The notes under the pieces are model-generated. The model ran no database searches and was not told the DNA's origin. It saw only the letters and a list, made by a program, of their open reading frames with translations. A stretch of DNA of 64,000 bases from Roseiflexus sp. RS-1. Its GTDB lineage: Bacteria > Chloroflexota > Chloroflexia > Chloroflexales > Roseiflexaceae. Positions 42,060 to 46,102 of the stretch are shown here, piece after piece. The position numbers and the translations under genes were made by a program. How positions within the stretch are numbered: position 1 is the stretch's first letter; every line of letters starts with the position of its first letter. The stretch lies in assembly GCF_000016665.1 (NCBI RefSeq), contig NC_009523.1:4587501-4651500 (forward strand), in the 5' to 3' direction.

Positions 42060-42745
42060 CACAGGGAGAAGGGGGATTCTGGGCGTCCTGATGCCTGAAA
42101 CGGGGGATAGCACGCGGGGGCGCGCCGCTGCCCCCTTCCTTTGCCCCTCATCCCCCCTGCCCTCTGCTTCCGCACGGGGAGAAGGGGGAGTTTGGGCGTC
42201 CTGATGCCTGAAACGGGGGATAGCACGCGGGGGCGCGCCGCTGCCCCCTTCCTTTGCCCCTCATCCCCCCTGCCCTCTGCTTCCGCACGGGGAGAAGGGG
42301 GAGTTTGGGCGTCCTGATGCCTGAAACGGGGGATAGCACGCGGGGGCGCGCCGCTGCCCCCTTCCTTTGCCCCTCATCCCCCCTGCCCTCTGCTTCCGCA
42401 CGGGGAGAAGGGGGAGTTTGGGCGTCCTGATGCCTGAAACGGGGGATAGCACGCGGGGGCGCGCCGCTGCCCCCTTCTCCCACACGGGGAGAAGGGGGAG
42501 TTTGGGCGTCCTGATGCCTGAAACGGGGGATAGCACGCGGGGGCGCGCCGCTGCCCCCTTCTCCCACACGGGGAGAAGGGGGAGTTTGGGCGTCCTGATG
42601 CCTGAAACGGGGGATAGCACGCGGGGGCGCGCCGCTGCCCCCTTCCTTTGCCCCTCATCCCCCCTGCCCCCTTCTCCCACAAGGGGAGAAGGGGGGATTC
42701 TGGGCGTTCTGATGCCTGAAACGGGGGATGGAGCGCACTGCTTCC
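42060..42745. repeat. Tandem repeat, 112-114 bp and 84 bp unit forms
   Basis: The marker TGATGCCTGAAACGGGGGAT recurs at 42090, 42202, 42315, 42428, 42512, 42596 and 42710, giving periods of 112, 113, 113, 84, 84 and 114. The short form lacks the segment CCTTTGCCCCTCATCCCCC. The same marker (as TGATGCCTGAAACGGAAGAT) is scattered through 48.6-49.6 kb. Open frames in all phases reflect the repeat only. Confidence 0.92.
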
Positions 42746-42854: not shown

Positions 42855-43130
42855 GCCGCAGAGCCGCTGAGTGAAAAATCTTTTTTCCGCCCTCTGCGCC
42901 CCGGCGGTGAAAAATAAATGCACCGCAGCGACGCTGAGAACGCTGAGTGAAAAATCTTTTTTCCGCCCTCTGCGCCTTAGCGGTGAAAAAGCAAATGCAC
43001 CGCAGCGACGCTGAGAACGCAAAGTAAAGAATATTTTTTGCGCCCTCTGCGCCCCGGCGGTGAAAAATAAATGCACCGCAGCGACGCTGAGAAAGCAGAG
43101 TGAAAAATCTTTTTCCGCGCCCTCTGCGCC
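42855..43130. repeat. About four degenerate copies of a ~75-85 bp repeat
   Basis: The unit contains ATGCACCGCAGCGACGCTGAG, a GAGTGAAAAATCTTTTTTCC stretch and CCCTCTGCGCCCCGGCGGTG. Copies start near 42860, 42915, 42995 and 43070, and a final part continues after the IS110 element at 44281. The IS is inserted inside the last unit. Confidence 0.8.
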
Positions 43131-43145
43131 TAGTATAATCTAACG

Positions 43146-43290
43146 GGACACGGTATACCGTTCTGCGCCAGGTTCACGAGATCGCCGCGGAGTGTTGGGT
43201 AGCCGTGTCCTTCAACGCGACCAAGCCGAACAGTTATCTGGGCCCTCAAACCCGCATATGCTAGCAAGGCTGGCGCCGTTTTCCTCAGGA
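43146..43290 (+). ncRNA. Predicted IS110 bridge RNA
   Basis: The left non-coding end contains four segments in the order expected for a bridge RNA. TCTGCGCC (43162-43169) equals the left target flank (43123-43130). CGCCGCGGAG (43183-43192) can pair with the right target CTCTGCGGTG using two G-T wobbles. ACAGTTA (43230-43236) equals the right element end ACAGTTACT. TATGCTAG (43257-43264) can pair with CTAGTATA at the left element end with one wobble. RNA boundaries are guesses. The existence of bridge RNAs in IS110 elements is established knowledge; this assignment is by eye. Confidence 0.7.
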
Positions 43291-43300
43291 GGTTCTGTGT

Positions 43301-44263
43301 ATGGCTTCCCGTGAGTCGCTCTTTATCGGCATTGATGTCTCCAAACAGACGCTGGATGTGGCGTTTGGCGCCGACCCGCACGCGCCACGCGAGACGATAC
43401 CGTCTACCGACGAAGGTGTCCAGCTCCTGGTCACGCGACTCCAGCGCCTGCAGCCGACCCTGATTGTGCTGGAGGCGACCGGCGGGCTGGAGCGCATGGT
43501 GTTCGCCCAACTGCTCCAGGCTGGCTTGCCGACGGCGCGGGTGCAGCCACGCCGCGTGCGCGCCCTGGCGCACGCGGAAGGACGCCAGGCGAAGACCGAC
43601 CGCCTGGATGCCCGGTTGCTCGCCCGCTTTGCCGAACGGGTGCGCCCGCCGCACCACCAAGCGACGGACGAGCAGCGCGCATCCTTGCGCGACCTGCTGG
43701 TCCGGCGGGAGCAGGTGATTCAGATGCGGACGGCTGAGATCAATCGGTTGACGGCTGCCGCGCCGAACCTCCGCCCGGGCATCCAGCAGCATATTGATTG
43801 GCTGGATCAGGAGATCCGTGCGCTTGAGCAGGAACGCGACAACGAGGCGGAGCGCACCGACGAGGTGCGCCGGAAACGGGAGCTGCGCGAAAGCGTGCCC
43901 GGCATCGGCGCGATCACCGCACTGAACCTGCTGCTCCGCCTGCCCGAACTGGGGACCATCAATCGCACGGAAGCGGCGGCCTTTGTGGGCGTTGCGCCGT
44001 ATGCCAATCAGAGCGGCGCACAGCACAAACCCCGGCATAGCTCCGGCGGCAGGAGGGATGTGCGCAGCGTGTTGTACATGGCGACCCTGGCGGCCACGCG
44101 GCGCCGTCTGGTCAGGCGCGCCTTCGATCAGCGCCTGTGTCAAGCTGGCAAGCCGCGCAAGGTCGCCATCGTCGCTGCGATGCGCAAGCTGCTGACTATT
44201 CTCGGCGCAATATTGCGTCAGCAAAAGCCCTGGGATCCGGCTGTGCATACGAGCGCCCCTTGA
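43301..44263 (+). CDS. IS110-family transposase (DEDD recombinase)
   Basis: 320 residues, apparently intact; AGGAGG lies upstream of the ATG. The N-terminal RuvC-like domain has FIGIDVSKQTLDVAF (Asp), IVLEATGGLERMV (Glu) and AKTDRLDARLLARFA (Asp-Asp). The C-terminal Tnp_20 domain has ESVPGIGAITALNLL, AAAFVGVAPYANQSG and the serine region KPRHSSGGRRDVRSVLY. It forms the recombinase that acts with a bridge RNA. The stop codon TGA is part of the TTGACA box used in the circle-junction promoter. Confidence 0.92.
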   Translation: MASRESLFIGIDVSKQTLDVAFGADPHAPRETIPSTDEGVQLLVTRLQRLQPTLIVLEATGGLERMVFAQLLQAGLPTARVQPRRVRALAHAEGRQAKTDRLDARLLARFAERVRPPHHQATDEQRASLRDLLVRREQVIQMRTAEINRLTAAAPNLRPGIQQHIDWLDQEIRALEQERDNEAERTDEVRRKRELRESVPGIGAITALNLLLRLPELGTINRTEAAAFVGVAPYANQSGAQHKPRHSSGGRRDVRSVLYMATLAATRRRLVRRAFDQRLCQAGKPRKVAIVAAMRKLLTILGAILRQQKPWDPAVHTSAP

Positions 44264-44377
44264 CAAGCAACACAGTTACTCTGCGGTGAAAAATAAACAC
44301 ACCGCAGCGACGCGGCGGACGCGGAGCGAAACGTCTCCGCGTCCTCTACGTCGCTGCGGTTCATGCGTGCCGTGAAG

Positions 44378-46102
44378 TCAATGATGCACGGTGTGCTCTT
44401 CCATTCGCCGCACCTGCGGATACGCCGGCGTCCACATTGTTGCGTTGATGCGCGCGGTCTGCTCTTCGGCGCTGAGCGGCGCCGCCAGCCCGGAGCGCAC
44501 GGCCTCGGCAGCGACTGCCTGCGCCACGGCGCGTGAAACGTCGCGCACCTGGGTGAGCGATGGGTAGAGTGACGCCGTCGGGTCCTGGCGCGCCGGTGAG
44601 AAGGCGCTGAGTGCGCGCGCGGCGGCGATGAACATTGCGTCGGTGACGCGCTTCGCGCCAACGGCGATGACACCCAGCCCGACGCCGGGGAAGATAAAGA
44701 CGTTGTTGCATTGCCCGATCGTGAAGGTGCGACCGCCGTAGGTCACTGGCTCGAAGGGGCTGCCGGTCGCAACCAGTGCGCGTCCCTCCGTCCACGCGAT
44801 CAGGTCAGCCGGAACAGCCTCGCTCTTTGAGGTGGGGTTGGAGAGCGGGAAGATGACCGGACGCTCGACATGCCGCGCCATCTCACGGATGGTGCGCTCG
44901 TCGAATGCGCCGGGTTGCGCCGATGTGCCGATCAGACACGTCGGACGTACATTTGAAACAACATCATACAGGGTGAATGCTTCGCTCCCTTCGCGCGTCC
45001 ACCCCTCCAGCATCTCGTAGGGTTGGGCGTAGAGCATTTTCACCGCTTCGAGACCGGTACGCCGGGTGTGAACCAGATCGCGGCTGTCGATCAGCCAGAT
45101 CGTCCGCCGCGCCTGTTCGAGCGGGATGCCCGCTTCGACCATGACGGCCACGATCTGTTCAGCAATGCCGGTCGCTGCCGAACCTGCGCCCAGCATGACA
45201 ATGCGCTGATCCGCCAGCGGCACGCCGGAGATCTCAACTGCAGCAAGCCACCCTGCCAGTGTCACCGCACCGGTGCCCTGAATGTCGTCGTTGAAACTGA
45301 GAATCCGGTCGCGGTAGCGGTCGAGCAGGTTGCGCGCGTTATCCTTGGCGAAATCTTCCCATTGCAGCAATGCGTGCGGGAAAACCTTCTCCACTGCTGT
45401 GACGAACTGCTCGATAAAGTCGTCGTACTCTCTGCCGCGCACCCGCTCATGACGCCACCCCAGGTAGAGCGGGTCGTTGAGCAGCGCGGGGTTGTTGGTG
45501 CCGACATCGAGCACGATCGGGAGTGTGGTTGCCGGATGGATTCCGGCGCAGAGTGAGTAGAGCGTCAACTTGCCGATTGGAATGCCGATGCCGCCCATTC
45601 CCTGGTCGCCGAGGCCCAGGATGCGCTCACCGTCGGTGACCACAATCACGCGCACCTGATCGGCGAAGGGCCAGGCGCGCAGCATCGTTTCGATCTGATC
45701 GCGGTGCGGATAGCTGATGAACAGACCGCGCGGGCGGTGGAACAGGTGACTGTAGCGCTGGCAGGCGACGCCGACTTCTGGCGTGTAGATGATCGGCATC
45801 ATTTCGGTGATATGCTCAAGCAGCAGGCGGTAGAAGAGCGTCTCATTCCGGTCTTGCAGATCGGTCAGGTAGAGGTACCGATCCAGGTCGTTGGTGCGCT
45901 GCTGGTAGTTGCGGTAGACACGCGCCAGTTGCTCGTCGATAGTCGAGATGTGGTACGGCAGCAGCCCCAGCAGACCAAGCCCGATGCGCTCTTCTTCGCT
46001 CCAGGCGCTGCCCTTGTTCAGCACCGGCGTGTTGAGTACATCGTGTCCGGTACGGTCGGTCTCGACGGTTCTTCCTTCATCAGCGAACCGGATGCGGATC
46101 AT
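44378..46102 (-). CDS. maeA: NAD-dependent malic enzyme
   Basis: 574 residues, full length; GGAGG precedes the ATG. Large malic-enzyme form: [18 protein letters not shown] (catalytic Tyr), [40 protein letters not shown] (catalytic Lys and the metal-binding ND), [15 protein letters not shown], and the NAD site [17 protein letters not shown]. It oxidatively decarboxylates malate to pyruvate. The NAD-type assignment follows from length and family. Confidence 0.93.

Follow-up and report, generated by a model that had tools for sequence, protein, structure and literature searches.

An IS110-group insertion sequence in Roseiflexus sp. RS-1 with a predicted bridge RNA whose guides account for 39 of 40 targets

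The element and its copies in the genome

The window, by which we mean the whole 64,000-nt stretch analyzed here (contig NC_009523.1 of Roseiflexus sp. RS-1, positions 4,587,501 to 4,651,500), contains an IS110-group insertion sequence at 43130–44280, which is 1151 bp long with both copies of its CT core counted. The element encodes a DEDD recombinase and has non-coding ends of unequal length, 169 bp at the left versus 15 bp before the core at the right; the long RNA-carrying right end of the IS1111 group is absent. The features discussed below all lie on the forward strand.

42865–43130 (+), 76-bp tandem array from repeat analysis, the next unit of which is interrupted by the element
43123–43129 (+), left target (LT), TCTGCGC, equal to the left target guide
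43130–43131 (+), CT core at the left junction, CT in 39 copies and AT in one
43134–43139 (+), TATAAT, −10 box of a predicted circle-junction promoter, from sequence only
43147–43209 (+), target-binding stem-loop of the predicted bridge RNA, stem 43147–43159 with 43198–43209, from covariation
43162–43168 (+), left target guide (LTG), TCTGCGC, ranked first among 2290 windows by the left-target matrix
43183–43192 (+), right target guide (RTG), CGCCGCGGAG, pairing with the core and +1 to +8, of which +1 to +5 are constrained in nature
43193–43194 (+), putative target-loop handshake bases, the T pairing with donor position 7 (A), role taken from IS621
43216–43279 (+), donor-binding stem-loop of the predicted bridge RNA, helices 3–7 with 81–100% of cells paired
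43230–43236 (+), left donor guide (LDG), ACAGTTA (ACAGGTA in three copies), equal to 44272–44278
43257–43264 (+), right donor guide (RDG), TATGCTAG, pairing with 43130–43137
43301–44263 (+), DEDD recombinase, 320 aa, with Pfam domains PF01548 and PF02371; IS621 and ISCro4 are relatives
44260–44265 (+), TTGACA, −35 box of the predicted circle-junction promoter, overlapping the stop codon
44272–44278 (+), left donor sequence at the right end, ACAGTTA, equal to LDG
44279–44280 (+), CT core at the right junction, CT in all copies
44281–44288 (+), right target (RT), CTGCGGTG, pairing with RTG

Upstream of the 76-bp array, positions 42060–42645 hold two overlapping tandem arrays with units of 113 and 84 bp and 97–99% matches. 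A 378-codon open frame (43130–44266) runs antisense to the recombinase over almost the whole element and is probably a by-product of base composition.

Both IS110-family domains were found in the recombinase (DEDD_Tnp_IS110, 1.4e-24; Transposase_20, 3.6e-15), and a sequence search against solved structures gave ISCro4 (9t56) as the best match (E = 1.4e-45), with IS621 at 9.5e-43. When aligned to IS621, and assuming an inferred offset of 2 between the chain and the published IS621 numbering, the catalytic residues map to D12, E58, D100, D103 and S238, whose codons are identical in 40/40 copies. Among 48 aligned relatives, the window element included, E58, D103 and S238 were present in every sequence, D100 in 47 and D12 in 42.

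The genome, a single contig of 5.80 Mb, contains 40 full-length copies of the element, each 1151 bp long and 99–100% identical. Four counts gave this number: the element search (40 scored of 122 first-look candidates), searches with the left and the right ends allowing at most 3 mismatches (40 each), and the protein search (40 matches of 63 candidates, all scored). LTG and RTG are unchanged in every copy, and the left non-coding end is free of any difference in 35/40, the variants being a core base (one copy), 43234 within LDG (three copies) and 43300 (one copy). We considered the LDG variant, a G at 43234, as a sign of co-evolution and rejected it, as the right end is unchanged and those copies differ elsewhere too. 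A draw of 400 genomes from the phylum yielded no relative closer than 58% identity, and of the four further genomes of the genus that it included, three had no match at 1e-20; the simplest reading is a recent burst of the element in this lineage. A plasmid search with the element found no match, and a scan of genome contigs with the protein found one distant relative (L085, 25%), which was left unused. Rfam returned five weak matches for 43000–44400 (microRNA and isrG families), all far below the gathering score, and none was used. Among the open-licence literature listed for this element, for IS110 in Roseiflexus or Chloroflexi and for bridge-RNA targeting, the titles and abstract beginnings do not name the element.

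Two further observations concern the copies themselves. Across 43131–44280 there are 26 variable sites outside the core, 21 of which are A:T<->C:G transversions; the 19 of those located in the gene all alter the protein, without a single silent change, and the four-gamete test is failed by 96 of 136 pairs of informative sites. This pattern may reflect oxidative mutation and conversion among copies, or else an artefact of base calling or assembly in a repeat. In addition, two copies lie head to tail, 6 bp apart, at L054 1359–3661 (genome 2815351–2817658), as if a single repeat had offered two CT cores at a distance of 8 bp and both had been used.

Guide segments and the predicted bridge RNA

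A preliminary description of this DNA had proposed that all four guide segments of a bridge RNA can be read in the left end, and each was indeed found there. The segment TCTGCGCC at 43162–43169 is identical to the left flank at 43123–43130; RTG pairs with 44279–44288 at 10/10 positions, two of them as G-T (row L001, the window copy); and RDG pairs with CTAGTATA at the left element end with one G-T. The identity of LDG with the right element end also holds, but its place there is 44272–44278 and not 44273–44279, an error of one position. The segments follow the order LTG, RTG, LDG, RDG, with the target loop preceding the donor loop as in the IS110 group and as first described, and excision with a single CT leaves CCCTCTGCGC-CT-CTGCGGTGAAAAATAAA, which by eye resembles the adjoining 76-bp array units, in keeping with the suggestion that removal restores a repeat unit. 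The two bases after LTG are C (43169) and A (43170), and most relatives have CT there; the A faces the core T, and pairing of LTG with both core bases, an IS621-like detail that does not define the family, is thus not seen here.

We compared 53 elements with a called left end, the window element included; loop anchors failed in 18, leaving 35, of which 32 had both flanks and represented 29 distinct guide pairs. The alignment used for the fold comprised the window and 28 of 32 stretches, the near duplicates L075, L080, L087 and L088 being left out. Across these 29 left ends we found a conserved two-loop structure, the feature on which the preliminary description had staked its reading: both-side changes occur in 17 of its 31 pairs, and 84 cells are compensatory versus 23.8 in shuffles, none of 500 shuffles reaching 84. 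Paired cells make up 94.6%, compared with 83.8% in shuffles and 33–44% when one strand is slid. Helix 1, the target stem, shows both-side changes in 8 of 12 pairs and has 98.0% of its cells paired. Folded alone, the sequence has an ordinary energy (z 0.01), which was rejected as evidence for a bridge RNA; the single-sequence centroid pairs LTG with RTG because the left and right targets are near repeats of each other.

The base after RTG, which is the handshake position in the portions of the IS621 reports consulted (PMC11208160; PMC11208158), pairs with donor position 7 in 33/34 elements (G:C in 28, T:A in three, A:T in two), a count in which L057 was read with a misplaced right end. A donor-loop handshake with target position −1 fails for the window element, in which C faces the usual C.

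Targets of the 40 copies and the two left registers

We found that the left core is CT in 39/40 copies and AT in one, while the right core is CT in 40/40; the latter count had CT in one search string, and the right-end search with 3 mismatches allowed agreed with it. Right flanks fit C-N-G-(C/T)-G in 40/40 copies compared with 97 of 6293 CT places elsewhere in the window. At right-target +4 there is a C in 36 copies and a T in four, and +1, +3 and +5 are invariant; the left target varies. A guide-pairing score of at least 9 was reached by 39/40 sites versus 104/6288 background CT sites in the window, and a score of at least 11 by 26/40 versus 5/6288; the weakest site, L053 (total score 6), is the only one under 9. 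We saw no copy with these guides at unrelated flanks among the 40, L053 being the weakest case, and the earlier view of a programmed insertion explained by its guides holds insofar as the targets are accounted for by the guides; expression and activity are presumed.

A weight matrix built from the 40 left flanks, with the register chosen without using the guide, ranked 43162(+), the start of LTG, first of 2290 element windows on both strands. The right-target matrix with the core ranked 43192(−), which is RTG, first of 2288; without the core dinucleotide, three CCGCGT windows in the gene outscore RTG across the whole element, and within the left end RTG comes first, tied with an overlapping palindromic window. 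The target hairpin was rejected as the recognized feature because only part of the 40 targets, judged by eye, fold into a hairpin repeat. Clustering the 40 sites at 75% identity over 61 nt gives 22 flank clusters, the largest with 11 members.

With the core fixed and two registers offered, the best fit of TCTGCGC lies at −7 to −1 for 26 copies and at −8 to −2 for the other 14. A guide-independent assignment placed 15 copies in the shifted register, and when offsets from 0 to 5 were offered, the best was 0 in 25 copies, 1 in 12, and 2 or 3 in three. Among the 35 element rows the left match ends 7 nt past the loop anchor in 28, usually followed by CT (7 was the smallest offset tried in that count, and the anchors of L079 and L112 are wrong in it); in the window element it ends 8 or 9 nt past the anchor and CA comes next, which looks as though the left guide lacked the base facing the core T. 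Our own reading, to which we give even chances, is that where the cut falls is set by the right guide together with the core, and that the left guide, having lost the base that would pair with the core T, functions in two registers, so that one RNA would have two target grammars and could use two repeat subfamilies. In the literature consulted, the nearest precedent for such register tolerance is a passage of Durrant et al. on IS621.

The competing account also invokes RNA guides, but has the right guide and the core do nearly all of the recognition, with second-register left matches arising as a by-product of octamer repeats (tandem CTCYGCGC units) and no slipped pairing needed. The invariance of right-target +1, +3 and +5 beside a variable left target speaks for it, as do the spacing counts: occupancy at gaps 1 and 2 follows the number of empty sites listed for each (13/86 and 11/53, p 0.49). 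Moreover, of the 97 CT places in the window whose right side matches, 16 reach a left score of at least 5 in the second register and five do so in the first. Repeat structure may therefore explain part of the register pattern. Against this account, L003, whose ortholog in a sister genome is a single locus, shows a 7/7 left match in the second register; that register is present in 9 of the 22 flank clusters; and hardly any insertion uses a spacing other than 1 or 2, with one of the 25 counted occupied sites versus 27 empty ones among the matches listed (p 0.049 against gap 2, p 0.18 against gap 1). The spacing counts came from narrow patterns, used in place of broad ones that matched 600 and 750 places. 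One narrow pattern gave 42 matches versus 19 for a reversed-pattern control; the other gave 119, of which 100 were listed, versus 109 for its reversed control, and its count alone therefore shows no enrichment. We regard recognition dominated by the right guide as a real but less than even possibility.

Empty sites, relatives and known systems

For four sites the two flanks were joined and looked for in 20 related genomes, and eight stretches were compared. Gap-free orthologous empty sites were found for three of the four (L003 at 89.6%, L016 at 96.4% and L029 at 91.4% identity), with further gap-free ones for L016 (84.2%) and L029 (78.6–80.7% in three genomes); an additional L003 match at 68.9% identity has 9 gaps, and for L025 these genomes yielded no empty site. 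Together with the junction cores, these sites show insertion at a CT core without further target duplication. For L003 the empty site has AT, as does the left junction of that copy, and its right junction has CT, which fits the outcome of an exchange after the core T. The same sites bear on a spread of the 40 copies by duplication of flanking repeats, with the shared target simply inherited: L011, L042 and L051 do share about 310 bp at 89–94% identity beside the element, yet the number of flank clusters and the gap-free empty sites of three loci make this reading very improbable.

Joining the right end to the left end yields TTGACA-17-TATAAT with 0 mismatches. A candidate junction promoter with at most 2 mismatches was present in 12 of 41 elements, the window's included, four of which are near-identical copies from one genome; this count, too, read L057 with a misplaced right end.

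Relatives of 39–59% identity carry different guides that match their own flanks. Over 29 guide pairs and 5000 permutations, which ignore kinship among relatives and sites that are non-independent, the cognate left match was 148.5 versus a permuted mean of 109.9 (maximum 128.5), and the cognate right match 142.5 versus 77.3 (maximum 98.0). An element's own guide was the best or tied in 20/29 relatives, and the other nine were matched better by the guide of another element. L056 (58–59% identical), for example, has the LTG TTTGTGTC at the target TTTGTGTC, and its RTG pairs with one wobble. That guides and flanks change together, and that the loop fold covaries, leaves scarcely any credence for a recombinase that reads GC-rich repeats directly with incidental guide matches, even though many targets lie in repeats and the right matrix, once the core is left out, no longer singles out one place in the element.

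Two groups of relatives deserve separate mention. L066, L088 and L089 are near-identical copies in one genome (G106) that differ within LTG and RTG, which is natural re-targeting between sister copies. L091–L094 (genome G005), three of them within about 9 kb, adjoin GCACGCTTTGTTAG(G) sequences that resemble integron attC sites; their core is GT at the left in three of four and CT at the right in all four.

The copies, guides, fold, junction and empty sites therefore point to the known bridge-RNA mechanism. We consider it very probable that this is an IS110-group element whose insertion is guided by a left-end bridge RNA with LTG and RTG in its target loop and LDG and RDG in its donor loop; the basis for this consists of the guides, targets and ends, the covarying fold, guide-flank covariation in relatives, the promoter sequence and the empty sites. 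By analogy with IS621, which supplies the circle, transcript, catalysis and strand exchange, the recombinase would most likely excise a circle whose junction sets TTGACA from the right end 17 nt from TATAAT of the left end and could thereby drive the bridge RNA. One loop of this RNA would pair with the junction, its second loop with a chromosomal target TCYGCGN(N)-CT-CNGYG, and strands would be exchanged at the CT core. The right guide would fix the core position, and the left guide would add specificity while tolerating one extra target base before the core, although of its role in the second register we are less sure.

Forty natural insertions with one unchanged pair of target guides show directly which targets a bridge RNA tolerates in nature: right-target +1, +3 and +5 are strict, C or T occurs where the guide has U or G, and the left register is loose. 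Such register tolerance bears on the specificity of bridge-RNA tools.

As far as the consulted portions of the IS621 reports go (PMC11208160; PMC11208158), the element resembles IS621 in its DEDD recombinase, CT core and handshake base, in a left-end bridge RNA with the target loop before the donor loop, in a promoter at the junction of right and left ends (predicted here from the bases alone), and in insertion into repeated sequences, which for IS621 are REP elements. Its guides and targets are different, and an A stands where the LTG of IS621 pairs with both core bases. Two left registers occur here among natural copies, whereas those portions mention tolerance of an inserted base only for off-target sites of reprogrammed guides. 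ISCro4 is the closest solved recombinase by sequence, a likeness that covers the recombinase sequence alone. The IS1111 group, in the part of the seekRNA report consulted (PMC11187229), likewise combines a DEDD transposase with a target-selecting RNA from a non-coding region, but in that group the longer non-coding region is found downstream of the gene and the guides come in reverse order, whereas here this region is upstream and measures 169 bp. REP-targeting insertion sequences, in the excerpt consulted (PMC1525189), also insert into repeated palindromic sequence, unlike part of the 40 targets here, which are not hairpin repeats. Set beside these systems, the mechanism is known and the element is new; the natural evidence is unusually complete, and one feature, the two left registers, is less expected.
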